Source of the DNA: Selenomonas sp. oral taxon 126
GTDB lineage: Bacteria; Bacillota; Negativicutes; Selenomonadales; Selenomonadaceae
NCBI RefSeq assembly: GCF_001683335.1
Contig: NZ_CP016201.1
Span: forward strand, 1,319,528-1,383,527
Direction of reading: 5' to 3'
Length of the DNA stretch: 64,000 nt
This document shows, piece after piece, positions 10,538 through 62,193 of the stretch. A program made the translations under genes and the position numbers. The number at the start of each line of letters is the position of its first letter. Within the stretch, counting starts at the first letter, position 1. The notes beneath the pieces are model-generated. The model was not told the DNA's origin. It searched no databases and saw only the letters and a program-made list of their open reading frames with translations.

Positions 10538-10670
10538 GCGCCCCTATCGGCTCACTGCGTTCGCCACTTCCCCCGCTCTGGCGGGGGAAGCTAATATGCC
10601 GTAATGCAAAGCCTCCCCCGCGACACGGGGGAGGGGGACCGCGTGAGCGGTGGAAGGGGCGCCTTGAGCG
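10538..10670 (+). repeat. Dispersed palindromic repeat R1 (full length)
   Basis: About 130 bp bounded by GGCGCCCCT and AGGGGCGCC (9-bp terminal inverted repeat). Inside are two C5G/CG5 hairpins separated by an AT-richer stretch (CTAATATGCCGTAATGC). Homologous copies: R2 32465-32528 (right half), R3 53182-53310 (full, inverted), R4 58921-58992 (diverged right half), R5 61886-62142 (full, with insert). No coding capacity; MITE/REP-like. Confidence 0.85.
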
Positions 10671-10683
10671 TCAACACGAGCAT

Positions 10684-10725
10684 GGGGCTGCTGCACGAAG
10701 TCGTTTCGACTCGTGCAGCAGCCCC
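10684..10725 (+). promoter_or_regulatory. Long hairpin in the valS leader (possible attenuator)
   Basis: GGGGCTGCTGCACG pairs with CGTGCAGCAGCCCC; after one bulged A the inner arm AGTCG/CGACT closes on a TTT loop, about 19 bp in all. It is followed by ATTTCTTTC, a weak T-tract, and 24 nt later the valS start. Sister hairpins with the same GGGCTG(C/T)TGCAC arm sit next to R2 and R3, so it probably belongs to the repeat unit. Confidence 0.6.
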
Positions 10726-31976: not shown

Positions 31977-32462
31977 ATGGGACTGTTTGACGGCTTCAGC
32001 GGAAGCGACGAAGGGCTCAAGAACAGCGCATTTGAAGCGATTAAGGCGGAACTTGACAAGCAGGATATGAAATACGGCGAGGACGTGACGGAGGACGGCG
32101 AGGATCAGATCATCCGTATGCGTCAGCAGCTCGACAATGGCAGTGTTGTCAGCATCGCCATTGTCGTCACGGAGAAAGGCGATACGAACGATTTCATCAA
32201 GATCAAGTACTTCGGGCTTGTGCGTTTGGAAGAGGGCAGCGATCCCAAGGTGTTCCACGAGAAGCTCAACGAGTGGAACAGCCAGTATCGCTACGTGAAA
32301 TTCGTTGTTGACGATGAGCGCGATGTTGTCATTGACATCGATCTGCCGCTCGATCTGCACGTCGGCGTGTTTCAGGCGGATAGCTTCATGGCGATGGTTG
32401 GTGTCGGTCTGCAGGTGCTCGAGGAGATCTACCCCGAGCTGATGAAGCTGCGCTGGGCATAA
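31977..32462 (+). CDS. YbjN-like domain protein, second tandem copy
   Basis: 161 residues, MGLFDGFSGS start, then NEWNSQYRYVKFVVDDERDV and IDIDLPLDLHVGVFQADSFMAM, matching the upstream copy across its length. CGGAGG lies 7 nt before the ATG. The pair is probably co-transcribed and may form a heterodimer. Terminated by repeat R2 plus hairpin. Confidence 0.7.
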   Translation: MGLFDGFSGSDEGLKNSAFEAIKAELDKQDMKYGEDVTEDGEDQIIRMRQQLDNGSVVSIAIVVTEKGDTNDFIKIKYFGLVRLEEGSDPKVFHEKLNEWNSQYRYVKFVVDDERDVVIDIDLPLDLHVGVFQADSFMAMVGVGLQVLEEIYPELMKLRWA

Positions 32463-32464
32463 AA

Positions 32465-32528
32465 AGCCTCCCCCGTCGCTACGGGGGAGGGGGATCGCGA
32501 AGCGGTGGAAGGGGCGCCTTGAACGTCT
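32465..32528 (+). repeat. Dispersed repeat R2 (right half only)
   Basis: Starts at the second CCTCCCCCG/CGGGGGAGG hairpin and runs to GGTGGAAGGGGCGCCTTGA, matching R1's right half. The left half is missing. Confidence 0.8.
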
Positions 32529-36986: not shown

Positions 36987-39900
36987 ATGCTCAAAGGAAT
37001 GAAAGCAAAGCGGCAGCTAGCCGCATTCGTAGCGATTGCCCTCGGCGGCACGTTTGCCGTTGCGCCTACGGCGTATGCGGCGAGTGCAACGGTCACAACG
37101 GGCGACCGCATCAACGGTCACACGGGGACATCGAATGATCCCTATACCGACATTGAGGGCAGTACACACCTGATGAGCCCTTCTGTGACGGACAATATGC
37201 TTACAATCAATGCAAACAGCGTAGGCGTTGCTCCTATTGTCAACGGAGATATCTCCGCAGGCGGAACGACCTCGACCACAAACGCTGTGACGGGCAACAC
37301 GCTCGTCATTAACAGCATAAAACTCACGGGCAATGCGTACGGCGGCATCGGTCTCAATATAGCTCAGGTTTCGGGTGCGGCGCAGACAAATCCGAACACG
37401 GTCAAGATGAATGACGGAATTGTCACAGGATCTGTCATTGGTGTGCGCTCGACTGCGGGCGGCGTGGCGAACGGTGGGGTGGAACTCGCGGGCGGTACGC
37501 TGACTGCAAGGACCGGCACCGGGACCGCAATGGATGGAATTGCGATTGCGGGCGGCATGGGAAAGACCTCTGCCATCAACAACACAGTTACGATAGCAAA
37601 TGGAACGGTCGTGGGCAAGGTCTACGGCGGCTATGCTGAGAATGCGGCCGGCGGAACGACGGGCAACCGCGTTATCCTCGGCGATGTGAACGGGAGTGCC
37701 ACACCGAACCTCACCAATGCGTCCCTCTACGGAGGCAGCAACTCCACGGGCGTTTCGGGCGGCAGCCTCGATGCCATTCGGAACAACCACCTGATTGTGC
37801 AGACCAAGGGCATTACGGCAAACTCCGCGCAAAACTTCCACACGTACGAATTCCATCTGAACACAGGTGTTGCAGTGGGCAACACCATGCTCACGCTCAC
37901 CCACAACAACGACGCATTCGGGCGCGCGGTTGCGTGGGAGGACATCAAAGTCGACGCGACAGGTTGGAGCGGCAAGGGGGTCAATGCACAGGGAAAGAGT
38001 GTGCAGGACTACTTTGGCGATGTCGGCACGGTCACGCTGATGGCTGACGGCAACACAGCGACCAATCGCACATCGAATCTGAGATTTTCCAACTATACAT
38101 CGCCCGGTACGACGGATTGGAGCGGCGACTACGAGTACCGCATCAAGCTGCGCACGCAGACGGATACGGCAACCTCGACGACGCGCAACTACGTTGACGC
38201 AGAGCTCCATCGTTACCAGAACGCGAACCATACGCATACGGGCGCACTCAGCGGACGGAATACAATCTATGGAGGTTATTCCATCTGGGAAAACCTCGGC
38301 GGACAGACCGGCAATAAAAAGGTCGTCCAGGACAATACCCTCGTACTCAACAACGCGACGGGCCTCGTTTCGGGCTACGGCGGCTACACCTCCACGGGTG
38401 CGGATGCCGTGCGGAACAAGCTGACGCTGAACTCCGGCACGATCGAGAACCTCTTTGGCGGTGTTGCAACGGGGACGGGACTGGTCGATCGCAATGAGGT
38501 CACAGTCGCGGATGGTACGGTGACGGGCGATATCTTCGGCGGCAAATCGGACAATTTGACCTCGGGCAATGGCGTTGCCTACAGCGGCACGGGGACGGTC
38601 ACGAACAACAGCGTCACCGTCAACAAGGGAACGGTCAATCGCATCACGGGCGGCTACGGTACAACCACGGTCAGCTCGAACAGTGTTGCGATTAACGGCG
38701 GAGCAAATGCCTCGCGTACCACGGTCTATCCCGTTGTGCATGGAGAGGTCAAGGGCGGCGCGATTCGCGGCGATAACAGCGTGGACCGCAAAGCTGAGCA
38801 GAACACGGTCACGATCACCGAGGGTGACATTCAGGCCACCGTCTACGGTGTATTCGGTGAGCTCTTCGGCGCGGGCAGCTCCACCAACGCACATGTTCAG
38901 CTGGTCAACGACAACCATGTCAAGATCAGCGGCGGCTCCGCGCACAAGATCTACGGTGCATATCTGACGGGCTACGGCACTGCGGCGGGCACCGGCACGG
39001 CGACGAATAACACCGTCGAGATCTCGGGTACCGCAAAGGTCTCTGAAACGGCATACGGCGCAGCGGCAAATGGCAATGCGAGCCTTACCGCGAACAGCGT
39101 CACCGTTAAGGGCGGTGCTGTGCATGATGTCTACGGCGCGACGGCGAACGGCACGGGGGCTGTGAAGGACAATAGCGTCACCATCGAGAACGGCAGGGTG
39201 GATGACAACGTCGTCGGCGGTGAGAACACTTCAACGAGCACGAAGGCGGGCTCCGTTACGAACAATATGGTCACGGTCAAGGGCGGCGAAATCGTCGGCG
39301 ACATCTATGGCGGCGTGACCTATGCAGCGCAACCCTCCGGCTCGGGCGGCACTGGAACTACGACGACCTCCGGCGGCAATACCGTCACCATTACGGGCGG
39401 TACGCTCACGGGCGGTACGCGTCCCGACGGCACGCTGCGCGGCAATGTGTACGGCGGCTACGCGCGTGGGACGGATACATCGGTCGAGCAGAATAATGTG
39501 GTCAACCTCGGGGCAGACGACGGCAGCTACGCGGCGGACCTTACACGAGCGACCATCTACGGTGGGCGCAGCACAGCGGCGGGCAACACGCTGAACGTCA
39601 AGGGGCAGGACATTACCGTCAAGGGTGTTCACAACTTCACGAACTATAACTTCTACCTCACGGACAAGATCGACAAGAACGCGACGATGCTGAAGGTGAC
39701 TGATCACAACGGCTTTGAGAACCAGTATTCGGGAACCACGCCCGTGAACTTCTCGAATGTCAAGATCAACCTTCAGAATATGTCCGCAAAGCAGATTGCA
39801 GGGCGTGTTACCCTCCTTGAGGGCAATGACGACAACGCGCTGAAATTCCAAAACTACACACCGACAGCGGCGTGGCTGATCTCCCCGACACACAGCGACT

Positions 39901-42900
39901 ACGAGTACGCACTGCGCCTCGTGCGTTCCGACGGCACCGAGGCTTCCATGGGCACGACGACGGGCAGACGCGTTCTGTTGGACTACAACCGTTTCCAGAA
40001 CGGTAACGTCGCATACGATACGACGAGCGACGATACAGATTGGTTCGCGGGGCGCTCCTACGGGGGACACACGACCGAGCACAACCTCCTCACGATTGAC
40101 AAACCACTCAGCCGCGATATCATGGCATACGGCGCGAAGACGATGGGAGCGTCCGGCGGTTCCGGCGGTACGCGGGGGAATACACTCGAGATCAAGTCGA
40201 CGGGCAGCAATGCCTACCAGGTGACAGCGGGCTACGGCGGCTATATCCACGAGGCTGCCAACAACGACAAGGTGGAGAACAACGTCCTGCGCATGTCGGG
40301 CGGCAAGGTGGGCACGCTCTACGGCGGCTACTCAGCGGGCACGGGCGAGGTCAGCGGCAACAACGTCTACGTCACGGGCGGCAGAGTGTCGGGCAATATC
40401 TATGCGGGCTATGCTGCGACCGCAGGACAGGCGAAGGGCAATACGCTCACGCTTGGTGCGGACGACGGCAGCTACGGTGCGACCATCGCAGGAAATATCT
40501 ATGGTGCGAACGATAGCGGCGCGGGCAAGGGCAACACGCTCGTCGTACAGGCGGGCAATGTCTCCGTACAGCAGGTGAAAAACTTCGACACCTTCAAATT
40601 CGTCCTTCACAACGATACGCTCATCGACCATACCATGCTCAAGATTGAGCAGACGGGCGGTCTTGGCGGTACGGTTGACATGGCGAATATCACGGAGGAT
40701 GTCAGCAAATTCCACCTGAACCCGACGTGGACGGGCTCGCATTCCGTAAAGCTCATCGAGAGCAACGGACAGATGACATTCTCGAACTATGCGAAGAACC
40801 AGGATCGTACGTCAAAGTACGCGAATACGAACTATGAGGTCTACCTGCATACGGAGAACGATCAGACGCAGGGCTCCGACCTCCTGCTGACCTTCAACCG
40901 TCTGCGCGACGGTGACCGCAGCTATGACAGCACAAACGCTTCAGCGGCAGACAGCAGGGTGTTCACGGGCATCTCCGCAATGAATCACGATGTGGAGAAC
41001 AACAAGCTCCATATTACGGGCGTACACGCAAGCGGCATTGACAACTACGCCGCAGCGGGTGTCACCACGGGCACATCCGGAAGCCTGAAGAACAATATGC
41101 TCACGATTGACAGTGCAAATGCACTCAATATCCGCGATGTCTACGGTGCATACGCAGCGAACACGAGCACCTCGAGCAGCTCGGGCAGTTCGGGCGGCAG
41201 CGGCTCGGGCAGCAGTGGATCCGGCGGCGGATCGAGTACAATGAGCGGCAACGGGGTTATCCTCACGCGCGGTGCGCTGACCGGCAACATCTACGGTGCC
41301 AAGAGCGAGAGCAAGGTAAAGGCGGACAGCAACTATGTCACCGTGTCGGGCGGCTCGGTCTCGGGCTCTGTCTATGGTGGCTGGTCGACAAGTGACGATG
41401 CACAGAATAACAATGTCAGCCTCTCCTCTGTCCATATTGGCGGTGATGTCGTCGGCGGCTATGGCAAGAGTGCCAAGAACAACAGCATCACGCTGCGCGG
41501 TACCGAGGTTGCGGGTAGCGTCTATGGCGGAAAACTTACGACGGGTGTATCGGCATCTGCCAAGGACGGCAATACACTGAACGTCTATGACATGGGGGCA
41601 AAGGTCGGGTATTTTGAGGATTTCCAGAGCCTCAACTTCTACCTCTCCCCGCGTGCTGACCTCTCGAAGTCCATGCTGACCACGACACAGGCAAAGAACA
41701 AGGACATCAGCGGCAGCACGATCACCATGGAGCTCGACGGCGGATACGCGCCGATCGGCATGGGCGATGACATCAGCCTCGTCAGACTGCCCGACGCTCA
41801 GAACATTGTGACGGCAAACAACCTCTCGGGCACGACTTATCAGACGACGAAGGGCGTTACCCTCGACTATGAGTACACACTGAATACGCGTGGTACGGCA
41901 TCGACGGGCACGAAAAACGAGCTCTTTGCACACGTCACGAATATCAAGGTGAAGGACGAGACGAAATCCCTTGTCGAGACACAGGCAGCTGCGATTGCCT
42001 TCCTTGCGAGCGGCTCCGATCTCCTCACCGATGTCGGTATCCCCGCAGCCGAGGCGGCGGCGACCCAGATCGCGAACATTGTGGACACCCCGTATGCCGG
42101 CAGCGAGAAGAACTCTGCTGCTGCCTCCGCTCCACTCTCCACCCTCGGCAGCTATCAGCTGTTTGCGGCGCAGAGCTTCGGCAGTATGCGCCTCAAGTCC
42201 GGCTCCTACGTCGACACGAAGGGCTGGAATCTCAACGTCGGCTATGCACGCCGCAACGAACTTCTGGACAGATCGCTCACCTTTGGGCCGTTCATCGAGT
42301 ACGGCAGGGGCAACTACGACTCCTACCTCGACGACGGCACGCACGGCAGTGGCAAGACCGACTATCTCGGTATCGGTGTCATGGCAAAGACGGAGAGCGA
42401 GAGCGGCATCTATCTTGAGGGCAGTCTGCGCATTGGTCGTGCAAAGAGCGATTACAGCGGCATCATCGGCGCGAAGGGCACCGGCTACGATCTGTCGAGC
42501 AGCTACTTCGCCGGTCACATTGGGGTCGGACAGAAGCGCGAACTCATCAATGGCAATAAGATCGATACCTATGCCAAGTATTTCTACGCGCATCAGGCGG
42601 GCGCGAGCGCAACCCTTTCGACCGGCGAGCCGTATGACTTCGGCGCATCCACCTCGAGCCGTATCCGCTTCGGCACGCGTTACACGTTCAAGAACGATCT
42701 GGACGGCGAATTCTACGCAGGTCTCGCGTGGGAGTATGAATTCGACGGCAAGGGCACGGCGAGCTATCAGGGCTACAACCTGCCGAGCACGAGCCTCAAG
42801 GGCAGCACCACGCTCCTCGAACTCGGGTATCGCTACGCTCCCGTGGACAGCACCGTCAGCTACGGTCTGAACCTCACGGGCTTCAAGGGCAAGCGCAAGG

Positions 42901-42938
42901 GTATTACGGGCGGATTCAACATCGCCTGGGCGTTCTGA
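36987..42938 (+). CDS. Giant type V autotransporter 1
   Basis: 1983 residues. Signal peptide: KAKRQ then a hydrophobic core, cleavage near APTAYA (residue 31). The passenger (about 32-1700) is built from short Gly/Asn/Thr repeats such as GNTVTI-x-GGxVxGxVYGGY, the pattern of a right-handed beta-helix, broken by long inserts (NFxxYxFxL...TMLxL, then an NRFQNG-type joint) at about nt 38210, 39988 and 40900. A Ser/Gly linker lies near residues 1393-1422. The last 265 residues form a beta-barrel ending in WAF, the C-terminal Phe needed by the BAM machinery. ATG 36987 follows AGGGGAG. Adhesion is likely but unproven. Confidence 0.9.
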   Translation: MLKGMKAKRQLAAFVAIALGGTFAVAPTAYAASATVTTGDRINGHTGTSNDPYTDIEGSTHLMSPSVTDNMLTINANSVGVAPIVNGDISAGGTTSTTNAVTGNTLVINSIKLTGNAYGGIGLNIAQVSGAAQTNPNTVKMNDGIVTGSVIGVRSTAGGVANGGVELAGGTLTARTGTGTAMDGIAIAGGMGKTSAINNTVTIANGTVVGKVYGGYAENAAGGTTGNRVILGDVNGSATPNLTNASLYGGSNSTGVSGGSLDAIRNNHLIVQTKGITANSAQNFHTYEFHLNTGVAVGNTMLTLTHNNDAFGRAVAWEDIKVDATGWSGKGVNAQGKSVQDYFGDVGTVTLMADGNTATNRTSNLRFSNYTSPGTTDWSGDYEYRIKLRTQTDTATSTTRNYVDAELHRYQNANHTHTGALSGRNTIYGGYSIWENLGGQTGNKKVVQDNTLVLNNATGLVSGYGGYTSTGADAVRNKLTLNSGTIENLFGGVATGTGLVDRNEVTVADGTVTGDIFGGKSDNLTSGNGVAYSGTGTVTNNSVTVNKGTVNRITGGYGTTTVSSNSVAINGGANASRTTVYPVVHGEVKGGAIRGDNSVDRKAEQNTVTITEGDIQATVYGVFGELFGAGSSTNAHVQLVNDNHVKISGGSAHKIYGAYLTGYGTAAGTGTATNNTVEISGTAKVSETAYGAAANGNASLTANSVTVKGGAVHDVYGATANGTGAVKDNSVTIENGRVDDNVVGGENTSTSTKAGSVTNNMVTVKGGEIVGDIYGGVTYAAQPSGSGGTGTTTTSGGNTVTITGGTLTGGTRPDGTLRGNVYGGYARGTDTSVEQNNVVNLGADDGSYAADLTRATIYGGRSTAAGNTLNVKGQDITVKGVHNFTNYNFYLTDKIDKNATMLKVTDHNGFENQYSGTTPVNFSNVKINLQNMSAKQIAGRVTLLEGNDDNALKFQNYTPTAAWLISPTHSDYEYALRLVRSDGTEASMGTTTGRRVLLDYNRFQNGNVAYDTTSDDTDWFAGRSYGGHTTEHNLLTIDKPLSRDIMAYGAKTMGASGGSGGTRGNTLEIKSTGSNAYQVTAGYGGYIHEAANNDKVENNVLRMSGGKVGTLYGGYSAGTGEVSGNNVYVTGGRVSGNIYAGYAATAGQAKGNTLTLGADDGSYGATIAGNIYGANDSGAGKGNTLVVQAGNVSVQQVKNFDTFKFVLHNDTLIDHTMLKIEQTGGLGGTVDMANITEDVSKFHLNPTWTGSHSVKLIESNGQMTFSNYAKNQDRTSKYANTNYEVYLHTENDQTQGSDLLLTFNRLRDGDRSYDSTNASAADSRVFTGISAMNHDVENNKLHITGVHASGIDNYAAAGVTTGTSGSLKNNMLTIDSANALNIRDVYGAYAANTSTSSSSGSSGGSGSGSSGSGGGSSTMSGNGVILTRGALTGNIYGAKSESKVKADSNYVTVSGGSVSGSVYGGWSTSDDAQNNNVSLSSVHIGGDVVGGYGKSAKNNSITLRGTEVAGSVYGGKLTTGVSASAKDGNTLNVYDMGAKVGYFEDFQSLNFYLSPRADLSKSMLTTTQAKNKDISGSTITMELDGGYAPIGMGDDISLVRLPDAQNIVTANNLSGTTYQTTKGVTLDYEYTLNTRGTASTGTKNELFAHVTNIKVKDETKSLVETQAAAIAFLASGSDLLTDVGIPAAEAAATQIANIVDTPYAGSEKNSAAASAPLSTLGSYQLFAAQSFGSMRLKSGSYVDTKGWNLNVGYARRNELLDRSLTFGPFIEYGRGNYDSYLDDGTHGSGKTDYLGIGVMAKTESESGIYLEGSLRIGRAKSDYSGIIGAKGTGYDLSSSYFAGHIGVGQKRELINGNKIDTYAKYFYAHQAGASATLSTGEPYDFGASTSSRIRFGTRYTFKNDLDGEFYAGLAWEYEFDGKGTASYQGYNLPSTSLKGSTTLLELGYRYAPVDSTVSYGLNLTGFKGKRKGITGGFNIAWAF

Positions 42939-42960
42939 GCATACATTTGAAAATCACATA

Positions 42961-43011
42961 AAAACGCAGGAGAGCGGCACAATTGCGTGCTGCTCTCCTG
43001 CGTTTTTTTAC
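42961..43011 (+). terminator. Terminator of autotransporter 1
   Basis: AACGCAGGAGAGC(G)GCAC / GTGC(T)GCTCTCCTGCGTT, about 19 bp, followed by a T run. Confidence 0.93.
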
Positions 43012-43103
43012 CTTGTGTCAGCGCTTTTCCCCTGCCTTTGCTGCGTGGGATGTGCGTGGTGCGGCTTCGCGTCGATAGGGGACATGGAGCTCCACTGATT
43101 ATA

Positions 43104-43262
43104 GGAAGCACTGATAAATTCAGCCGCGCCATCTTAGCGCATCTTTTTTGCCCGCTTTTCGTTAGCAAATCCTCCACATAGCTTTGGCTATGCGTCCGGT
43201 TTGCCTCCTCGTTCGGACGAAAAATCTACGCCAATCTGCAGGTCTATTTTATCAGCGATTCC
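43104..43262 (+). mobile_element. MITE-like element, copy 2 (159 bp)
   Basis: Same termini as copy 1 (GGAAGCACTGATAAA ... TTTATCAGCGATTCC) in the same orientation. TATA flanks both sides, a possible 4-bp (or TA) target duplication. Lies between the autotransporter terminator and the XRE antitoxin gene. Confidence 0.78.
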
Positions 43263-43274
43263 TATAGATGTGGC

Positions 43275-43556
43275 TTACAGTGGAACAATGGCGAGTTTTT
43301 TGCCGAGGGGCGCGAGGAGTTTTGTGACCGTGGCGATACTCGGGCTTGCTGTTCCGCGCTCGAGACGTGCAATCATGGGGCGTGTGACGCCGCTCATCTC
43401 CTCGAGCTGCTCCTGCGTAATGCCGCGCTCTTCACGGGCGCGGATGAGTTCGCCAATCAGCGCGACACGCAGATCGCTCGCGGCAATTTCTTCGGGGCTC
43501 AAAAGCGAATCAATGTAGGCGAGAGCATTGTCACTGCTTGTTTTATTCGGACTCAT
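43275..43556 (-). CDS. XRE-family antitoxin (HigA-like), module 1
   Basis: 93 residues, starting at ATG 43556 behind AAGGGGAG. Helix-turn-helix: [20 protein letters not shown] then [16 protein letters not shown]. Overlaps the 3' end of the toxin gene by 14 bp, typical of toxin-first higBA-like operons. Neutralises the toxin and represses the operon. Confidence 0.88.
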
Positions 43557-43911
43557 ATGTAACTCCCCTTTCGATGAGGTCGGCAAGATTTTTCTGAGCA
43601 CGTTCAATTTCTCGGGCAGGCGTTTTCTGCGTTTTCTTTATAAACTGATGGAGCAGGACAAAGCCGCCCTGATACCATGCGGCAAAGAGGATTCGGTCAC
43701 GAAGAGGACGAAGTTCCCATATATCACCGTTGAGATGCTTAATATAAGGTTCTCCTACGCGCGTCCCGTATTCGCTTAATGCTTTGATATAGTCACGAAT
43801 CTTGTTTAATTTGATGCGACTGTCTTTATCTTTTTTTGCAGTAAGTTCTGCAATGTATGCCGCAATGGGGCGGTTTCCATCCTTATCCCGATAAAAGTAT
43901 ATTGGGTGCAT
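43543..43911 (-). CDS. RelE/HigB-like (Gp49 family) toxin, module 1
   Basis: 122 residues. Motifs: [20 protein letters not shown], then [26 protein letters not shown], the Gp49/HigB ribonuclease pattern. Its sequence is a clear paralogue of the toxin at 55899-56264. ATG 43911 lies only 4 bp after the thioesterase stop, so it is probably read on the same transcript. The ribosome-dependent mRNase role is inferred from family. Confidence 0.88.
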
Positions 43912-43915
43912 CGCA

Positions 43916-44323
43916 TCACTCCGGTTGCCGCTTCCCCTCCGCCTTCGCCATAAATTTATCCACGGCGACGGCAAAGCGCGTGTGCGTGCCCGCACCGATC
44001 TCCTCGCGCTCGTCGTACGCCGTGACATTGAGCGTGACTGCGCGTCCGTCTACGCCCGTTACCTTTGCGACAGCGCGTACCGTGAGACCGACAGGCGTCG
44101 CCGCGCGGTGCGTGATGTTCAGTGACGTGCCGACCGTCGTCCAGCCCTCGGGGCACTCCCTCTGACACAGCTCTGCCGCCGCGCGCTCCATCAGTGCCGC
44201 CATCGCGGGCGTCGCATACACGGCGAGCGAGCCGCTGCCGACCGTCACCGCCGTATTTGCATCCGTCACCGTGTCCACCGCCTCATGTGTCATGCCGACG
44301 GTGATATTGCTCTTGAAATCCAT
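43916..44323 (-). CDS. Hot-dog thioesterase (FlK-like)
   Basis: 135 residues. Reads [40 protein letters not shown] and [16 protein letters not shown], the single-domain hot-dog layout of the fluoroacetyl-CoA thioesterase-like family with the His near GTHTR. Cleaves an acyl-CoA; substrate unknown. It is embedded between a HicAB pair (34 bp upstream) and a RelE/XRE pair (4 bp downstream) on one strand. Confidence 0.85.
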
Positions 44324-44358
44324 ATGATTGCTCCTTTATATGTGTTTGATACGAAGCA

Positions 44359-44775
44359 CTATACTGCCGCTTCTTTTTCGTAAAGCTCCGTCAGAGCATC
44401 CTGAAGCACCTTGGAGACGTTCAGACGTTTTTTCTCGGCGAAGGTGTTCAGCCATGCGGGGATGGTGAGATTCTTGCGGATGGATTTGCTGCCGTATTTC
44501 GCGGCGTAGGTATCCATATCAAGGGAGAGGAGACTGACAAAGCCCTCGCCCATCTCCGGATCGGGGTGAATGTCCTCGATGCGGCTTGCGGGCGGTGCAG
44601 TCCGCCCGTCCTCGAGTTCTCCGAGTACCCAGCCGGACGCAGCATCCACGCCCATTGCAATCGCCTCAGGGAGGGATGCGCCTTCGCTGACACAACCGGG
44701 GAGATCGGGCACGACCACGCAGAATTTGGGATTAACTTCACAGGGATAAAAAATTGCAGGATAGACCAGATTCAT
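44359..44775 (-). CDS. hicB: HicB antitoxin
   Basis: 138 residues. N-terminal HicB fold (YPAIFYP, VVVPDLPGCVSEGASLPEAI) that docks on HicA; C-terminal ribbon-helix-helix DNA-binding part (KNLTIPAWLNTFAEKKRLNV, SKVLQDALTELYE). Lies 23 bp downstream of hicA. Confidence 0.93.
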   Translation of the reverse strand: MNLVYPAIFYPCEVNPKFCVVVPDLPGCVSEGASLPEAIAMGVDAASGWVLGELEDGRTAPPASRIEDIHPDPEMGEGFVSLLSLDMDTYAAKYGSKSIRKNLTIPAWLNTFAEKKRLNVSKVLQDALTELYEKEAAV

Positions 44776-44798
44776 ATCAATACCTCCTAGGTTTGAAA

Positions 44799-44981
44799 TT
44801 ACTTCAAGCCTGCTGTACGTAAAACCGATTTAACCGTCTTTGGATCAAGATCACCGGGATGGTTCGGAATTGTAATCTTGCCGGGCTTATCATTGTGGAC
44901 ATAGTGCATATGTGAGCCGTTCGAGTTTTTGAGATACCAACCGTTCTTTTTGATTAAGCGATCCAACTCAATAAATCTCAT
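44799..44981 (-). CDS. hicA: HicA mRNA interferase toxin
   Basis: 60 residues from ATG 44981: dsRNA-binding-like fold with catalytic His in NGSHMHYVH and the family string ITIPNHPG. Full length for HicA. A longer in-frame start (45074) is excluded because the promoter -10 (45000-45005) lies inside it. Confidence 0.93.
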   Translation of the reverse strand: MRFIELDRLIKKNGWYLKNSNGSHMHYVHNDKPGKITIPNHPGDLDPKTVKSVLRTAGLK

Positions 44982-44999
44982 CTCACCACATTCATCTAT

Positions 45000-45028
45000 A
45001 TTATAAACACAATGCGCATGGCTGTCTA
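45000..45028 (-). promoter_or_regulatory. Promoter of the hicAB-thioesterase-TA block
   Basis: Minus strand TAGACA (complement of 45023-45028), 17-bp spacer, TATAAT (complement of 45000-45005). Transcription starts about 12 bp before the hicA ATG. Confidence 0.75.
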
Positions 45029-45040
45029 GGAGGACGAAGG

Positions 45041-45056
45041 TGCGAGAATTGTCGCA
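45041..45056. promoter_or_regulatory. Candidate HicB operator
   Basis: Palindrome TGCGA-GAATTG-TCGCA, 12 bp upstream of the hicA -35. Another inverted repeat TTCAC-GTTTT-GTGAA lies at 45122-45136. Confidence 0.4.
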
Positions 45057-45175
45057 AATTGTTGCAGCGTGCACAAATATGAAAGGTGATCTATATATTT
45101 AAGAAAAATATCATGATTTCATTCACGTTTTGTGAAATTTTATTCAAAAAGAGGAATAATAAATTAGAAATATAG

Positions 45176-45205
45176 TTGACAACGAGAATAACCTTCATGT
45201 ATCAT
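45176..45205 (+). promoter_or_regulatory. Promoter of autotransporter 2
   Basis: TTGACA (45176-45181), 18-bp spacer, TATCAT (45200-45205), with an AT-rich stretch upstream that could act as an UP element. About 95 nt leader. Divergent from hicA. Confidence 0.75.
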
Positions 45206-45304
45206 AGGCGAGTATATAATGAGTCTCAGTCTGTGGTTGAGACCGGCGGAAGAATCTCGGTGATAAAGTAAATGTTCTTCGCGAGCACATTGGAGGAGGA
45301 GCAC

Positions 45305-48300
45305 ATGTTGAGTGGATTGAAAGCACAGCGTCGCTTGGCTGTCTATGTTGCATTGGGGCTGTCTACTGGGGGGGGACTGTTGTTCTCCGCACCGTCGGCG
45401 TATGCGGCGGATACGCATGACTACACAGAAACGGCTGCAAGCATCAACGGCCTTGAGGGTACGGACAAGACCGGCTTCATGAGCGACAACAAGATCACGC
45501 TCGGAACGGAAGGCGGTCCGACGAATAAGCCGTTCAGTACCTATGGTACGATTTCTGGCGGCGGAAAAAAGACTGCTACAGAGGATGTCAGCAATAATAC
45601 GCTGACGATTCACGGGCTGCAGGTCAGCAATGGCAGCGGACAGAGCATCATTTACGGCGGCATCAGCGGTACGGGTGCAGTTACGAACAATCGCGTGTTC
45701 TTCAACAACGGTCTGTCGAAAGATCCCATCTACGGCGGCTTCAACGGCGCGTCCGCCACGAAGGAGGTCAAGGGCAACTCCGTCACCGTTGCAGGCGGCA
45801 CCGTGGAAGGTGACGTCCAAGGCGGCGGCACGGAAGGCACGGGCGCTGTCACGGGCAATTCCGTCACGCTCAAGGGCGGCACGTTCGGCGATGAAGCGAT
45901 GGGCGGCATTATACGCAACGCATCGAGCAGTGCCGATGTTACAGGCAATACGGTGACGATTTCAGGCGGAAAATTCACGAAGAACAATACTTTCATCTAT
46001 GGCGGCTATACGCAGGGTACAGGCAAAACGACGGGCAACACCGTTAACCTCGGCGATGGTGAGAATGCCATGGCGGCGGGAACGGATCTGACAAAGGTCA
46101 ATCTTGTCGGCGGCAACAAGTTCGATGTCACGGGCAATAGGCTCAATGTCAACGCCTCAGGCATCATTGCACGCACGGCGCAGAATTTTGAGAAGTACAA
46201 TTTCAACCTCACGAAGGGCGTTACGGTCGGAACGGATAATGCATCGATACTGAATAATACCATGCTCAAACTGACCGAAAATAATGTGCTTGGCAGCAGC
46301 AATCAGGTTCAGTGGAAGAATATCACGCTGAACGCAGAAAAGTGGCATGACGATAAGACTCGCTACGGCAAAGTCGGCACGGTGCAGATGCTCTGGGGAG
46401 CGTCCGGCAGCACGCTGAAGGTCTTCCACGATGCGAAGATGGATCGCAAAGCGACAAGCGGCGATTTTGAATACCGTATGTATGCGGATGTCACGAATGC
46501 TCCGATATTTGGCGGCTACAATCTCTTGACCTATATCCGCGCTGACATCAATCGTTTCCAGAACGCCGATGCGACGGCGAACAACGTCACAGGCACAGCT
46601 GTCTATGGCGGCTATTCGAGTCTCGGCAATACGACGACGGAAAACAAGATCAAGATCACGAATACGAACAATACGAATCTGAATGTCTACGGCGGCTATA
46701 CAGCGGGCGCGGGTGATTCGACGAAGAATACGGTCACGATAGCGGGCACGAGCAAGGTCAAAAACGTCTATGGCGGCTATGTGACGGCGGCGAACGCCAA
46801 GGCGGATGGCAATACCGTCAATATTGAGTCGGGCGGCACGGTCAGCGGTCATATTTATGGTGGATATGCCAATGGCAACGGTACGACGACGAACAATACG
46901 GTCAATCTCGGCGATGCCGACCATACGGATTTCGCGGGCACGACGCTCACGAACAGCGAAATCCACGGTGGGAATAAGGCGGCGACGGGCAATACCCTCA
47001 ACGTCAACGCGAAAAACATCACGGTGAAGTCCGTCAACCACTTTGAAAACTACAAGTTCAAACTAAGCAGCGCGACCACGTTCGGCGATACGATGCTGAC
47101 CGTGACGGATGCGGGCGACTTCAGCGGGACGGGGGTTGACTTTGACAAGATCACCGTGGATCGGGCGGGGCTTTCAGAGGCTTCGAACACGCACGGCATC
47201 CAGAGGCTAACCCTGCTCAAACGAAATGGGATGCTGAAGTTCAACAACTATGTGGCGCGCGAGCTTGGCAGTGCAACCGATACGCATGAATTCGGTCTTG
47301 TGACCGATACGGGCACAAAAACGGCGCATGCCCTCATGCTGGAGGCGAGCCGATTCAAGGGCAGCAATGTCACCTATGACGGCACAACACCGACGTTCGG
47401 CGGTGAGGTCTATGGCGGATTCTCCCGCTTTGGTCATACGACGACGGGTAATACGCTGACAGTGACGGGGAAGCCCACATCGGGAACGCCGCTCTCATAT
47501 GCCTACGGCGGCAAGAACGAGGGCGCAGCAGGCGCGGTCACGGGCAATACGGCGACGCTCAATCTCCCGAACAACAATACCGCGATCAAGGATGTCTACG
47601 GCGGTAAAATCACGAACGCAGCCAATGCGGGCGAGGTCTCGGGCAATATCGTCAATATGAAGCAGGGCACGGTGGAGTATGCGGTCGGCGGGCAGACCAA
47701 CGGTACAGGTGCGGCGAAGAACAATACGGTCAATCTCACGGGCGGCACGGTGACGAGGGAGATCTATGGCGGTCTCAGCGAGAAGGGGGCGGCGACGGGC
47801 AACACAGTCACGATCTCGGGCGGCACGGTTGGCAGTTATACTCCTGCCGATGTCTACGGCGGCAAAAAGCTGGTGCTGAATGCCGGCAGCAGCACGTCGA
47901 ACAATACGGTGAATCTCGGGGCGGAGGACGGCAGCTATACGGCAGACCTCACCAAAGCAAATATTCACGGCGACAACTCCACGGACGGTGCGGTGAACAA
48001 CAATACGCTGAACGTCCGCGGCAAGAATATCACGGTCAACAGCGTGGATAATTTTGACAAGTATAAGTTCACGCTGAACAACAACATCAAAGATGGCGAT
48101 ACGATGTTGACGCTGAAGAACGGCGGCTTTGGCAGGGAGATCGACTTCGCGAACAATTTCGGTCTGGATACGTCGAAGCTGACGGGAAAACCAACCGGCC
48201 TTATTACTCTTGTCAAGAGTGCGACGGGGACGCTGAAGTTCAAGTCAGGTTACGTGCCGCGTGATCTCGGCAGCACGGACAATGTCGAGTACTTCGTCGG

Positions 48301-51300
48301 CACCGACACAGGGGAACGTGAAGGCTTCTCCGTCATCATGGGGTACAATATCTTCAAGGGAAATACGTGGACGTACGACGGCACGAATCCGCCGAATGCG
48401 AAGGAACTGTTCGGTGGTGTCTCCTACAACAACCACACGACGGAGAGCAATACGCTCACGATCACGAACACCTCCACGACGGAATGGGTTGGCAAGACCT
48501 ATGGAGGCAAGACGGCAGGACGCACGGGCGGTGCCAAGAACAACCGCGTCGTCGTTGAGAATACGGGAGCCGGCAGAGGTATCACCAACGTCTACGGCGG
48601 TGCGGTCACGAATGAGAAGAACGCTACGGGCACGGTGACAGGCAACAGTGTCACGCTGAAAAATGGTCGTACTAGCACGGTCTACGGCGGCTATACGCGA
48701 GGCAAGGGCGCGGTCGGCGGCAGTGCGAACGGCGAGGGCAATGCGGTGACGCTTGAGAATGGCGTAGCGGGCGATGTCTACGGCGGTGCCATCGACAATT
48801 CGGACAGCACGGCCGCTGTCACGGGCAACAAGGTCACGATCCAAAACGGTACATACAACCGGCTCTATGGCGGTCATACCAAGGGCAAGGGTGCGGCGCA
48901 GAACAATGAGGTCACGATCTCGGGCGGCACGAGCAGCGATGATGTCCACGGCGGCTACACGCATGACGGCGGCGCAGCGACGGGCAACGGCGTGACGCTT
49001 ACGGGCGGCACGGTCACGGGGACGATCTACGGCGGCTATACAAATAACGGCGGCGATGCCACGGGCAACACAGTGACGCTCACGGGCGGCAAGGTGACGG
49101 ATAAGGTCTACGCCGGATACGCGGACGGTGGCGGTGCGACCACGGGCAACACGGTAAATCTCGGCAATGGAACAGGTTTCTCTGAGGGTGCCGATTTTTC
49201 GGGTACCTCCATCTATGGCGGCAACAAAGCTGACGTGACGGGCAACACGCTGAACGTCAAGGGCAAGAACATGACCGTCAAGACGGCGGGCAAATTCGAG
49301 AACTATACTTTCTATTTGGGGAATGATGTAAAGGACGGCGATACGCTGTTGACGTTCGCGCAGGCGGGCGGATTTGACGGTGATGCCGCAGACTGGTCGA
49401 AGATCACGCTCGATGCGGATAAACTCCATGCGTGGAGCGCGGGCAAGCAGCGCACGAATACCATCACGCTGCTCAATGCTGCAGGTATGACGTTCACGGG
49501 TGCGGCAAATCAGCGTCTCCTCAGCGTTCATGACGGCATGGAGTACGGTGTGCGGACGGATAACGTCGGCTCTGCGACGGCGAGCAAGATCTTCCTTGAG
49601 GCGAATCGTTTCAAGAACGGCGTGGTTGACTTTACCGCCGCGACAACGGGCGAGGCGCTCGGCGGCATTTCTCATTTCGGCAATACGACGGAGCACAATA
49701 CGCTGACGGTCAAGAGTCTCGCCGCAGGTGCGCACAGTGCCTACGGCGGCAAGACGATGGGCGCGGCGGGCGGCTCAATCAAGAATACAGTCACGGTTAC
49801 AGGGACGGGCGCAGGTACGCTGACGAACATCTATGGCGGCTATGTTGATAAGGCTGCGAACAGCGGTGATGTGACGGGCAACCGTGTGACGCTCACGGGC
49901 GGCACTGTCACGGGTGCGGTCTACGGCGGCTACACGAAGGGCAGCGGTGCGACCACGGGCAATACGGTCAACATCGGTGCGGACCCGACGACGCTGAAAC
50001 AGGGCGATACCTCGACGCTCGCGGCGGGCACGAACCTCACGAATGCGGAGCTTTACGGCGGCAACAAGGGCGCGGCGGGCAATACGCTGAACGTCACTGT
50101 GAAGGATGCTGCGGCGAAGAAGGCGCAGAACTTCGAGAAGTATACGTTCTACCTGACGAACTCCGTTGCGGCGGACAAGCCCAAGAGCGGCAAGATCGAG
50201 GATGCGTTCACCAAGACGCGCGGCACGATGCTGTCCCTTGCGGACGGGTTCGACGGGCAGACGGTGGACTGGAACAACGTCACGGTCGATACGTCGAAGC
50301 TCTCCGCCGACAAGACGCTCGGCGCGATCACACTGATGAAGAGTGGGACTGCGGGCAAGCTGAAGTTCTCGAACTACGCCGTGAAAAATCACGCAGTGAG
50401 CGGCGACTATGAGGTTGTTCAGCGCACGGATACGACGGATACGGGGACGACAGTCAACGCGACGACGGTACTCATTGACGTGAACCGCTTCCGTAACGGT
50501 GAGGTCGTTTATGACGGGGTCAATCCGAACGCCAAGACGTACAGCGGCGTTTCCTACGGCGGCAATACGGCGGAGAAGAATACGCTCACGATCACGGGCA
50601 TTGCCTCCGGCAAGACGGTCAAGTACCTCTCGGGTGGACGCTCGGAGGGGGCTGCGGGTGGTGCGGTAAACAACACCGTAAATCTCGTCGGCACGGGCGC
50701 GGGTACGCTGGAAGAGGTGTACGGCGGCTATATCGGCAAGACAACGAACTCTGCGAATGCGACCGGCAACACGGTCAACATCGCGGGCGGCACAGTTGCA
50801 AAAAATATCTATGCGGGCTACACGAACGGCACGGGCAAGACCACGGGCAACACCGTCAACATCGGTTATACAGACGAGAAGAAGGTGTTCCATGCGGTTG
50901 CTGACGGCACGAAGGTCATAGGAACCATCTACGGCGGCAACAAGTCTGCCGAGGGCAATGTGCTGAATGTGCGCGGCGCGATTACGGCGGGGCAGATTGC
51001 GAACTTTGAGCGTCTGAACTTCACCGTGAACAAGGATACGGTGGGCAAGACGCTGCTGACACTCAATGGCGGCGCTGCAACGAGCGGACTTGACTGGAAG
51101 AAACTCACGGCACAGGTCGGCACGACCGATCTGCCGACGAAGAGCTATGCCGCGACACGCGTCACGCTGATGGCGAATGAGCAGGGCATTGAGTTTACGA
51201 ACTACGACAAGGCAAAGGAGCTTGTCGCGGGCGAGGCCTATGAGTTCTCTGTTGACAGGGCGTCCGACGGCAAGTCTGTCTATGCGGACGGCTATCGGTT

Positions 51301-53098
51301 CAAGGACAACAAGACGGCGTCCTATGCGGCGTCGGACGGCACGCATGACCTTGCATGGGGCGGACGCTCGGAGCAGGGACATGCGGCGGAGGGGAACGTG
51401 CTCACCGTCACGGGCGGCACGATCACGGATACGGCGTACGGCGGCACCTCGCGCAAGGGGGCGGCGAAGCAGAACCGGCTCGTCATGCGCGGCGGTACGG
51501 CACAGAACCTCGTCGGCGGCTTTGGTGCGTCGGCGTCGGATAACGCGGTGGACATCTTCGGCGGCAGCGTCGGCGGTGATGTCTACGGCGGACGTGCGAC
51601 CGGGGGTGTGGCATCCGGCAACACGGTGAATCTCTACGGAGGGGTCAAGATTGGCGGCGTGATCCACGGCGGCGCAGGCAATGCGAACAGCACGAACAAT
51701 ACGCTTGCGGTGCGCTCGTTCGGCACGACGGCGAAGGATTTTGACGGTGTGCAGAATCTGCATTTCTACCTGCCTGCGGGAACGACACCTGCAGAGACGC
51801 GGACGATGCTCACGCTCACGAATACGGGCGAAAAGAACATCCGGGGGTTGCATCTCGGCGTCGGCATTGCGGGCGATGCGAAGGCGTTCCGTCCCGGCGA
51901 TGCGGTCAGCCTGCTCAAGGTGGGCGGTACGCTGACGACGGATGATGCACTGAAAAACGTCGGCAAGGATACGATGAAGGCGTCGCAGGGCTCTGTTCTC
52001 GACTATACACTCAGCCTCGCAAAGCGCGGGGAGAATGAGCTCATTGCAACGGTTGAGAAGGTTGAGATGAATGCGCGCAGTAAGTCGCCGGTCGAGACGC
52101 GCGTGGCGGCGAGCGCACTGCTGAACGCAGGTGCAGACCTCCTCTCGCATGTCGGGTATACAGCTGCGGCTGAGGCGGCTGCTGTGATCTCGGCGGGGAC
52201 TGCTCCCGCTCCTTCCTCCGTCGAGGGCGTGCGGAACACGAATGCAGGACTTGCGGCTGCGGGTACTGCGGCATCTGCCGGTGCAAATGCGTCGGCGGCA
52301 GGCAGCGGTGCATTCCAGCTGTGGGCGGCGCAGGGCGGCTCGAATATACGGGTGCATTCCGGCTCCCATGTGGATGCAAAGGGCTGGAACCTCAACGTCG
52401 GCTTTGCACGCGCAAACAAGATGGGCGATGCAACGCTGACCTACGGACCCTTTGTCGAGTATGGGCGCGGCACATATGACTCCTATCTGGACGACGGCAC
52501 GCACGGCAGCGGCAAGATGAGCTATATCGGCGGCGGCATGATGGCGAAGCTGACGCACGAAAACGGACGCTATGTTGAGGGCAGCGTGCACGCGGGGCGT
52601 GTGCGGAGCGACTACACGGGCAGCGGCGACGCTGCGGCGCTGAGCTATGACAACTCGAACACGTACTGCGCCGGACACGTTGGTTTCGGTCAGGAATGGA
52701 AGCTCGCGGGCGGTGACCGCATCGAGGGCTATGCAAAGTATTTCTACTCCCATCAGGGCGGCAGTACGACGAAGCTGCGCTCGGGCGCAGAGTTCGACTT
52801 CGGCGGTGTGGACTCGCACCGTCTGCGCGTCGGCGCACGCTATACGCACGCGGACAGCGCAAACAGCGAGGTCTACGCGGGGCTTGCGTACGAGTATGAG
52901 TTCAACGGAGATGCAACGGCGATCTATCAGGGCTACAGTACACCGAGCCCGTCGCTCGGCGGCGGCACGGGCATCCTCGAGCTTGGTTATCGCTTCGCAC
53001 CGAAGGACGGCCGCGTCAGCTACGGCGTGAACCTCATGGGCATGACCGGTCAGCGCGAGGGTATCGCGGGCGGTGCACAGGTAACGTGGGCGTTCTAA
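45305..53098 (+). CDS. Giant type V autotransporter 2
   Basis: 2597 residues. Signal peptide with KAQRR and cleavage near APSAYA (residue 34). The passenger alternates beta-helix repeats (GNTVTL-x-GGxVxGxxYGGYT) with a long insert module (NFxxYxFxL ... DTMLTL ... NRFxNGxVxYDG) whose joints fall at about nt 46550, 47350, 48350, 49605, 50485 and 51292, giving six supermodules of roughly 270-420 residues against three in autotransporter 1. The C-terminal 265 residues (from GWNLNVGFAR context) form a barrel ending WAF, closely matching autotransporter 1. ATG 45305 follows GGAGGAGGA. Probably exported to the cell surface. Confidence 0.9.
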   Translation: MLSGLKAQRRLAVYVALGLSTGGGLLFSAPSAYAADTHDYTETAASINGLEGTDKTGFMSDNKITLGTEGGPTNKPFSTYGTISGGGKKTATEDVSNNTLTIHGLQVSNGSGQSIIYGGISGTGAVTNNRVFFNNGLSKDPIYGGFNGASATKEVKGNSVTVAGGTVEGDVQGGGTEGTGAVTGNSVTLKGGTFGDEAMGGIIRNASSSADVTGNTVTISGGKFTKNNTFIYGGYTQGTGKTTGNTVNLGDGENAMAAGTDLTKVNLVGGNKFDVTGNRLNVNASGIIARTAQNFEKYNFNLTKGVTVGTDNASILNNTMLKLTENNVLGSSNQVQWKNITLNAEKWHDDKTRYGKVGTVQMLWGASGSTLKVFHDAKMDRKATSGDFEYRMYADVTNAPIFGGYNLLTYIRADINRFQNADATANNVTGTAVYGGYSSLGNTTTENKIKITNTNNTNLNVYGGYTAGAGDSTKNTVTIAGTSKVKNVYGGYVTAANAKADGNTVNIESGGTVSGHIYGGYANGNGTTTNNTVNLGDADHTDFAGTTLTNSEIHGGNKAATGNTLNVNAKNITVKSVNHFENYKFKLSSATTFGDTMLTVTDAGDFSGTGVDFDKITVDRAGLSEASNTHGIQRLTLLKRNGMLKFNNYVARELGSATDTHEFGLVTDTGTKTAHALMLEASRFKGSNVTYDGTTPTFGGEVYGGFSRFGHTTTGNTLTVTGKPTSGTPLSYAYGGKNEGAAGAVTGNTATLNLPNNNTAIKDVYGGKITNAANAGEVSGNIVNMKQGTVEYAVGGQTNGTGAAKNNTVNLTGGTVTREIYGGLSEKGAATGNTVTISGGTVGSYTPADVYGGKKLVLNAGSSTSNNTVNLGAEDGSYTADLTKANIHGDNSTDGAVNNNTLNVRGKNITVNSVDNFDKYKFTLNNNIKDGDTMLTLKNGGFGREIDFANNFGLDTSKLTGKPTGLITLVKSATGTLKFKSGYVPRDLGSTDNVEYFVGTDTGEREGFSVIMGYNIFKGNTWTYDGTNPPNAKELFGGVSYNNHTTESNTLTITNTSTTEWVGKTYGGKTAGRTGGAKNNRVVVENTGAGRGITNVYGGAVTNEKNATGTVTGNSVTLKNGRTSTVYGGYTRGKGAVGGSANGEGNAVTLENGVAGDVYGGAIDNSDSTAAVTGNKVTIQNGTYNRLYGGHTKGKGAAQNNEVTISGGTSSDDVHGGYTHDGGAATGNGVTLTGGTVTGTIYGGYTNNGGDATGNTVTLTGGKVTDKVYAGYADGGGATTGNTVNLGNGTGFSEGADFSGTSIYGGNKADVTGNTLNVKGKNMTVKTAGKFENYTFYLGNDVKDGDTLLTFAQAGGFDGDAADWSKITLDADKLHAWSAGKQRTNTITLLNAAGMTFTGAANQRLLSVHDGMEYGVRTDNVGSATASKIFLEANRFKNGVVDFTAATTGEALGGISHFGNTTEHNTLTVKSLAAGAHSAYGGKTMGAAGGSIKNTVTVTGTGAGTLTNIYGGYVDKAANSGDVTGNRVTLTGGTVTGAVYGGYTKGSGATTGNTVNIGADPTTLKQGDTSTLAAGTNLTNAELYGGNKGAAGNTLNVTVKDAAAKKAQNFEKYTFYLTNSVAADKPKSGKIEDAFTKTRGTMLSLADGFDGQTVDWNNVTVDTSKLSADKTLGAITLMKSGTAGKLKFSNYAVKNHAVSGDYEVVQRTDTTDTGTTVNATTVLIDVNRFRNGEVVYDGVNPNAKTYSGVSYGGNTAEKNTLTITGIASGKTVKYLSGGRSEGAAGGAVNNTVNLVGTGAGTLEEVYGGYIGKTTNSANATGNTVNIAGGTVAKNIYAGYTNGTGKTTGNTVNIGYTDEKKVFHAVADGTKVIGTIYGGNKSAEGNVLNVRGAITAGQIANFERLNFTVNKDTVGKTLLTLNGGAATSGLDWKKLTAQVGTTDLPTKSYAATRVTLMANEQGIEFTNYDKAKELVAGEAYEFSVDRASDGKSVYADGYRFKDNKTASYAASDGTHDLAWGGRSEQGHAAEGNVLTVTGGTITDTAYGGTSRKGAAKQNRLVMRGGTAQNLVGGFGASASDNAVDIFGGSVGGDVYGGRATGGVASGNTVNLYGGVKIGGVIHGGAGNANSTNNTLAVRSFGTTAKDFDGVQNLHFYLPAGTTPAETRTMLTLTNTGEKNIRGLHLGVGIAGDAKAFRPGDAVSLLKVGGTLTTDDALKNVGKDTMKASQGSVLDYTLSLAKRGENELIATVEKVEMNARSKSPVETRVAASALLNAGADLLSHVGYTAAAEAAAVISAGTAPAPSSVEGVRNTNAGLAAAGTAASAGANASAAGSGAFQLWAAQGGSNIRVHSGSHVDAKGWNLNVGFARANKMGDATLTYGPFVEYGRGTYDSYLDDGTHGSGKMSYIGGGMMAKLTHENGRYVEGSVHAGRVRSDYTGSGDAAALSYDNSNTYCAGHVGFGQEWKLAGGDRIEGYAKYFYSHQGGSTTKLRSGAEFDFGGVDSHRLRVGARYTHADSANSEVYAGLAYEYEFNGDATAIYQGYSTPSPSLGGGTGILELGYRFAPKDGRVSYGVNLMGMTGQREGIAGGAQVTWAF

Positions 53099-53120: not shown

Positions 53121-53162
53121 GGGCTGTTGCACGAAGTCATTTTGACTCCGCATAACAGCCCT
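53121..53162. terminator. Terminator hairpin of autotransporter 2 (beside R3)
   Basis: GGGCTGTT ... AACAGCCC with inner AGTC/GACT arm; the arm GGGCTGTTGCACGAAGTC is homologous to the hairpin beside R1. Confidence 0.75.
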
Positions 53163-53181
53163 TGTTCGTATGAGCGTTCAA

Positions 53182-53310
53182 AGCGCCCCTTCCACCGCTT
53201 CGCGGTCCCCCTCCCCCGTACCGCACGGGGGAGGCTTTGCATTACGGCATATTAGCTTCCCCCGTCGAAACGGGGGAAGTGGCGAGTGAAACGAGCCGAT
53301 AGGGGCGCTC
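53182..53310 (-). repeat. Dispersed repeat R3 (full length, inverted)
   Basis: Reads in reverse AGCGCCCCTATCGGCTCG through to AAGGGGCGCTTTGA; both internal C/G hairpins are present. Orientation opposite to R1. Confidence 0.85.
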
Positions 53311-58920: not shown

Positions 58921-58992
58921 TCACCGCTCCCTTGCCTGCCCCGCCGCAGCGGGGAAGGGGGACCATGCGCAGCGTGGTGGAAGGAGCGCTTT
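58921..58992 (+). repeat. Dispersed repeat R4 (diverged right half)
   Basis: CCCCGCCGCAGCGGGG core with GGGGGACCATGCGCAG and GGTGGAAGGAGCGCTTTA, recognisably R1's right half. It starts one base after the ilvC stop. Confidence 0.75.
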
Positions 58993-61882: not shown

Positions 61883-61885
61883 GGA

Positions 61886-62142
61886 GCGCCCCTATCGGCT
61901 CGTTTCACTCGCCACTTACTGACCTGTCCGAGAAGCAAGCCCGAAGGGTGCAGCTGAGCGGGTAACAGGTCGTATGGGAAAACCTCCCAAGAACACAAGC
62001 CGAAAGGCGCAGTGTGATTGGAAGAGGTTGACCGCTCCCCCGCTTCGGCGGGGGAAGCTAATATACCGTACTCCAACAGCCTCCCCCGTCGAAACGGGGG
62101 AGGGGGACCATGCGCAGCATGGTGGAAGGGGCGCCTTGAGCG
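61886..62142 (+). repeat. Dispersed repeat R5 (full length, interrupted)
   Basis: GCGCCCCTATCGGCTCG ... CCACTT, then a 119-bp insert, then the rest of the repeat (CCCCCGC to GGTGGAAGGGGCGCC). Removing the insert restores an R1-like copy. Confidence 0.85.
61918..62036. other. 119-nt structured insert inside R5 (possible RNA element)
   Basis: Two adjacent long stem-loops. Stem 1 (61921-61971): GACCTGT/ACAGGTC, CCG/CGG, an AGA/GAG purine internal loop, AGC/GCT, then GCCC-GAA-GGG. Stem 2 (61981-62029): AACCTC/GAGGTT, CCAA/TTGG, GA/GA internal loop, ACAC/GTGT, GCC-GAAA-GGC. GNRA tetraloop and tandem G-A mismatches are typical of folded RNA. I do not recognise the family. Confidence 0.55.
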
Positions 62143-62150
62143 CGCCAACG

Positions 62151-62193
62151 AAAAATGCGGTACGAAGTCAAAACAGCTTCGTACCGCATTTTT
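62151..62193. terminator. Bidirectional terminator between leuB and the MFS gene
   Basis: AAAAATGCGGTACGAAG ... CTTCGTACCGCATTTTT, 17 bp perfect stem around TCAAAACAG. Confidence 0.93.

Follow-up and report, generated by a model that had tools for sequence, protein, structure and literature searches.

The insert and the repeat that it interrupts

At the leuB locus of Selenomonas sp. oral taxon 126, a dispersed repeat is interrupted by a short structured segment, and the question raised by this locus is what that segment is and how it spreads. A preliminary description of the window (the whole 64,000-nt stretch of DNA that was analysed) had proposed that a 119-nt insert with two long stem-loops cleanly splits the repeat after CCACTT, and that the insert is a structured RNA that could be a mobile non-coding element. 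The results bear out both the insert and the split. The insert can be placed equally well at 61918-62036 or at 61917-62035, since the flank has a T at either end; the latter placement is favoured because the feet of the two hairpins covary. The segment 61918-62036 folds with -50.2 kcal/mol (z -4.8), a value that 0 of 200 shuffles reached, and its complementary strand folds more weakly (z -3.3). The insert breaks the host repeat right after CCACTT, and an empty form of the same repeat lies inside the window (53330-53140, minus strand), where the 34-nt left flank is identical and the junction reads GAGCGCCCCTATCGGCTCGTTTCACTCGCCACTT joined directly to CCCCCG. The genome carries the host repeat more than 40 times, with dozens of empty copies outside the window, and the segment is thus not a part of every repeat copy. 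The features of the locus are as follows.

61917..62035, plus strand: mobile twin-hairpin element, as supported by 24 genome copies, empty sites, and covarying feet (TRC/GYA and GCG/CGC)
61884..61916, plus strand: left part of the interrupted GGCGCCCC-type four-hairpin host repeat (100% match to the minus strand of 53277-53310)
62036..62155, plus strand: right part of the interrupted host repeat (inverted match to 53159-53277)
53159..53310, minus strand: uninterrupted paralogue of the host repeat (empty site)

Within the window, this four-hairpin repeat (GGCGCCCC...GGGGCGCC) occurs at 61884-62155, 53159-53310, 10538-10686, 32462-32525, and 58930-58962. The nested repeat and insert at the leuB locus are shared with one other genome (G005), and most other species have neither. 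The host repeat is probably mobile too, because it is abundant and is missing at the orthologous leuB site in most relatives. Elsewhere in the window, positions 37274-51450 hold long coding stretches of degenerate ~80-nt repeats (GGCGGCTAT.., GGCAATACGGTC..), probably encoding repetitive surface proteins.

Architecture and covariation

Members of the family are 80-125 nt long and consist of two abutting irregular hairpins, H1 and H2, which follow one design and stand in direct orientation. Each hairpin comprises, from base to tip, a foot, stem 1, a 3' bulge, stem 2 (CCAA/TTGG), a tandem GA/GA, stem 3, an AA/GNA loop, stem 4, and a small loop. In the window copy, fold and covariation together define the two hairpins.

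61917..61974, plus strand: hairpin H1 (foot TAC/GTA, stem GACCTGT/ACAGGTC, 3' bulge, stem 2, purine loop, stem 3, AA/GNA loop, stem 4, loop)
61976..62035, plus strand: hairpin H2 (foot GGG/CGC, stem AACCTC/GAGGTT, CCAA/TTGG, GA/GA, ACAC/GTGT, AA/GCA, GCC/GGC, GAAA loop)

The preliminary description is correct on the purine internal loops (GA/GA; AA/GNA) and on the GAAA loop. The GA/GA is retained in 76 of 95 family members, with purine on one strand only, and both the pairing and the purine internal loops are preserved while the sequence drifts.

Covarying stem pairs, for which the preliminary description had proposed a search, are found throughout the structure. Over 130 distinct copies, 95.1% of cells are paired, 33 of the 34 modelled pairs show two-sided changes, and double-change cells number 1088, as against 275 in shuffles and 66-181 in slid controls, counts that lean towards the model because the alignment was fitted to it. 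Sliding the partner by 1-3 columns reduces pairing to 22-39%, and 84 family copies give a similar result. The foot pairs lay outside the model to which the alignment was fitted, and their covariation (TRC/GYA for H1, in the variants TAC/GTA and TGC/GCA; GCG/CGC for H2) was reached by 0 of 2000 shuffles, with nothing at a neighbouring control position. Bases 5' of H2 pair, as a foot, with bases 3' of H2, reading GCG/CGC, GTG/CAC, GCC/GGC, or GTC/GAC in other copies; in the window copy (GGG/CGC) the middle pair is broken. The linker reads GTAT, GCAT, CCAT, GAAT, or GTAC and covaries with the H1 foot. Because the feet covary, the consensus of the element is 5'-TRC[H1]GYA-T-GCG-AA[H2]GAC-CGC-3', and its ends are without terminal inverted repeats. 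Covariation in DNA palindromes can partly stem from template-switch correction rather than from selection. We conclude that the covariation is strong enough to fix the structure to the base pair.

Copy number and distribution

The source genome (2.89 Mb, one contig) contains 24 copies with 78-100% identity, a number that excludes a chance origin. A plain DNA search found the element in 14 of 14 same-genus genomes (records of oral Selenomonas and Centipeda) but not in any genome sampled from another genus; oral Selenomonas genomes carry tens of copies each. The covariance-model search of related genomes that the preliminary description had suggested extends this range. A model built from the 24 copies detects the element in 58 of 151 family genomes, representing 15 of 30 genera, and a second model, built from 95 family copies, gives matches in 63 of 300 genomes sampled from the class Negativicutes (about one-fifth), spanning 22 of 97 genera and five families. 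One genome of another family (G242) has at least 128 matches, partial ones included, with twin hairpins throughout in the stretches read. Outside the class, weaker matches occur in seven members of the phylum Bacillota (best E 3e-17, the E-values from both models being rough). Head-to-tail arrays of the element also occur.

Comparison of the window with Rfam at gathering and relaxed thresholds yielded no gathering-threshold match, and the sub-threshold matches look like chance. Phage and plasmid records searched by blastn gave no match, nor did viral contigs searched by pattern, and we found no description of this family in the literature searched. The twin-hairpin repeat is apparently an undescribed short mobile DNA element.

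Two sets of related sequences were seen in other genomes. At six loci from several outlying families (L298, L300, L301, L356, L358, L359), a RumA/RlmD-like methyltransferase gene carries the match at its 3' end, with H1 spanning its last codons; in some of these cases the flank repeats that sequence downstream. Tandem related units that start with the same EAVVLL-type coding-end sequence occur away from any rumA gene in L295 (G296) and L292 (G287). Separately, L203 and L204 (G083, G119) and L184 1328-1414 contain different elements with a common upper hairpin, CCAAGA..CAAG..CGCAG..GATTGG, which is the first of two unlike hairpins.

Insertion sites and empty sites

According to one alternative hypothesis, the insert cannot move by itself: it would be a variable part of the GGCGCCCC host repeat and would owe its spread to recombination and to that repeat's own movement. 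Most source-genome copies do sit in the host repeat, at several places in it, and identical junctions recur at site types A, C, and D. An element inside a repeat is indeed also multiplied along with that host repeat, and many copies of one site type reflect spread by the host repeat, not fresh insertion. However, source-genome copies also lie in a second repeat family, and copies in relatives lie after the 3' ends of 23S, 16S, and 5S rRNA, after the CCA end of tRNA, after terminators, and in other repeat families, including those of other genera. One copy lies within an apparent cobalamin riboswitch, recognised by eye (L215 1501-1601, G062). Another lies in frame and stop-free inside a DEAD/DEAH-box helicase gene of type III restriction-like character (L202 1501-1600, G015), adding about 34 residues: relative to plasmid homologues, 266 query residues align to 230 without the insert. 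Such intragenic copies are exceptional. As the copies at these places show, the element reshapes essential loci (rRNA and tRNA ends, the riboswitch, the coding gene) without destroying them.

Empty sites, which the preliminary description had proposed to look for, were found in three settings. Clean empty sites are present among host-repeat paralogues. In the 23S-5S spacers of S. infelix, one operon is filled (L144) and another has GGCTTGACTTAAGTAG intact (L114). In the orthologous miaB-mutS spacer, the element is present in four genomes (G006, G007, G009, G010), and the site is empty, with the same flanks, in two (G008, G011), a gain or loss outside the GGCGCCCC repeat. The miaB-mutS and 23S-5S empty sites already largely refute the notion of an immobile host-repeat module, which we regard as highly unlikely.

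Across 68 site clusters, a T precedes the element in 42 and follows it in 49, such that insertion occurs mostly between two Ts. No fixed 4-5 nt target was found over these clusters, T^T being the only preference, and no target duplication was seen at empty sites. The proposal that the structure inserts into a repeat therefore holds for the window copy, which splits this one, but not as a general description, given the many other sites. Several candidate rules were rejected. Insertion into hairpin loops as a general rule was not significant (30/68 vs. 46/136, P 0.17); a fixed T target 5' of the element was dropped, that T being paired within the H1 foot; an IS110-type CT core was dropped because empty sites lack it; and a longer element between an inverted pair in G078 was rejected, the intervening genes being ordinary. 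The proposal of a mobile non-coding element stands. Copies occupy many sites in either orientation, paralogues and orthologues alike offer clean empty counterparts, and covariation is strong; the mobility of the family, as read from sequence, is therefore well supported.

Strand relative to genes and stem composition

The preliminary description had taken the structured molecule to be an RNA, and a corresponding alternative is that the element is a functional structured RNA that also spreads (e.g., an RNase III or mRNA-stability signal, or an rRNA-processing element). Consistent with this alternative, the structure is strong on one strand, copies in several genera lie precisely at the 3' end of 23S or close to the ends of 16S, 5S, and tRNAs, and genus g16 has mostly one sense copy, kept after 23S. 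However, the strand is random relative to genes. By our own codon-usage gene calls, the source-genome copies comprise 10 that are sense to both neighbours, 9 antisense to both, 4 between convergent genes, and 1 between divergent genes; copies in rRNA operons occur in both sense and antisense; and, in relatives, antisense copies precede 5S and tRNAs. The in-frame copy inside the helicase gene likewise argues against an RNA function. Furthermore, G-U pairs are scarce in the stems, where G-T and A-C are close to symmetric (1.5% vs. 0.8% of stem cells, 63 vs. 35), unlike the tRNA stems of the same loci (8.7% and 0.1%). The excess of G-T over A-C (63 to 35), like the G-T wobble in the foot of H1, is compatible with an RNA and with a single DNA strand alike.

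Random strand relative to genes, G-U-poor stems, and the retained GA/GA with purines on one strand only are what a non-autonomous DNA element that acts as a single folded strand would show, and they favour it over an RNA. The RNA part of the preliminary description is thus not supported: the structured molecule is more likely to be single-stranded DNA, an RNA role of the element is less likely, and we consider the functional-RNA hypothesis as a whole unlikely. We conclude that the window insert probably belongs to a family of non-autonomous mobile DNA elements with two direct hairpins, spread as folded single-stranded DNA.

The mobilising enzyme and comparison with known systems

Movement of the element as single-stranded DNA, which we infer, would involve a protein. 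In the mechanism that we envisage, a putative protein acting in trans would read the internal loops on one folded strand and would cut at the hairpin feet, and the element would then be joined into single-stranded DNA at TT; by these steps it would spread as folded single-stranded DNA in the manner of REP/REPIN or IS200/IS605-derived elements, with a different enzyme. The two conserved internal loops offer a direct handle for fishing out the protein. Clustering of open reading frames in the flanks of 156 loci revealed no linked transposase gene, only host-repeat artefacts, shared neighbours, and orthologous loci.

A further alternative is that the element is a REP/REPIN moved by RAYT (TnpA_REP), or an IS200/IS605 remnant, with the transposase lost from many genomes. 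The E. coli enzyme TnpA_REP reads single-stranded hairpins that carry a GTAG tag and a conserved AA-GC mismatch, the latter being required, and cleaves at CT (PMC8266576). The strand-specific irregular hairpins with a kept AA/GNA mismatch recall this AA-GC mismatch, no target duplication was seen, and the H2 foot bases pair across the hairpin like guide and cleavage sequences. However, a GTAG tag is absent, the linker being variable (GTAT, GCAT, CCAT, GAAT); a fixed 4-5 nt target is absent; and the Y1 transposase (PF01797) is absent from the source genome (G000) and from most tested high-copy genomes (G242, G083, G078, G086, G163, G094, G079, G030, G269). The Y1 loci of the genus, searched with model R2, have no convincing element copy at their ends, with one marginal match (L153, 16 bits, E 0.0085). 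A Y1 transposase as mobiliser is rejected, being absent where copies are most numerous, and more than 100 matches in genomes without it imply another mobilising enzyme. Descent from a REP/REPIN or IS200/IS605 system with a lost transposase is accordingly doubtful. The reading of a folded single-stranded DNA element is preferred, and a broader version of it can be offered tentatively: the family may represent a type of mobile element that occurs across the class, perhaps across the phylum, and consists entirely of two direct irregular hairpins. It would move as folded single-stranded DNA (or as reverse-transcribed RNA), and the enzyme responsible would be neither a Y1 transposase nor any known partner.

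Among known systems, classical MITEs (DDE) differ in having terminal inverted repeats and target-site duplications. Rickettsia palindromic elements are likewise palindromic and can enter genes in frame, as in the helicase gene, but differ in sequence and architecture, and intragenic copies of the present element are exceptional. The repeat bcr1, not known outside the Bacillus cereus group, spans ~150 bp, is non-coding, has a conserved secondary structure, behaves as a mobile element, and generates target duplications. Both bcr1 and the element are non-coding structured mobile repeats, but the sequences differ and no target duplication is seen with the element; bcr1 is listed in PMC2267715 and PMC6542083. 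Short elements derived from IS200/IS605 share subterminal irregular hairpins, the lack of target duplication, and guide-like pairing at the hairpin foot; the present element differs in that it lacks a fixed 4-5 nt target and a Y1 transposase, linked or shared, that its ends have no convincing counterpart at the Y1 loci of the genus, and that H1 starts at the very end. CGTC-tagged REPs, known without a transposase (PMC3733652), are likewise palindromic repeats without a dedicated transposase, but have 8-9 bp perfect stems and an unpaired CGTC tag, whereas the CGTC present in some copies of the H2 stem is paired and variable.

The nearest known system is REP/BIME/REPIN with RAYT (TnpA_REP) (PMC3733652, PMC8266576, PMC3116915). 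Like REP/REPIN, the element is a short, non-autonomous, intergenic palindrome, dispersed in tens to hundreds of copies as irregular hairpins with a kept mismatch, strand-specific, sometimes intragenic, and commonly dimeric. Unlike REP/REPIN, it has two long hairpins always in direct order, paired feet, and two conserved purine internal loops per hairpin. It is not filed under GTAG REPs because both the GTAG tag directly 5' of the hairpin and a RAYT (Y1) gene in the genome were tested and are lacking. The element nevertheless may work like a REP, and with it the short list of palindromic mobile repeats in bacteria gains a widespread family.
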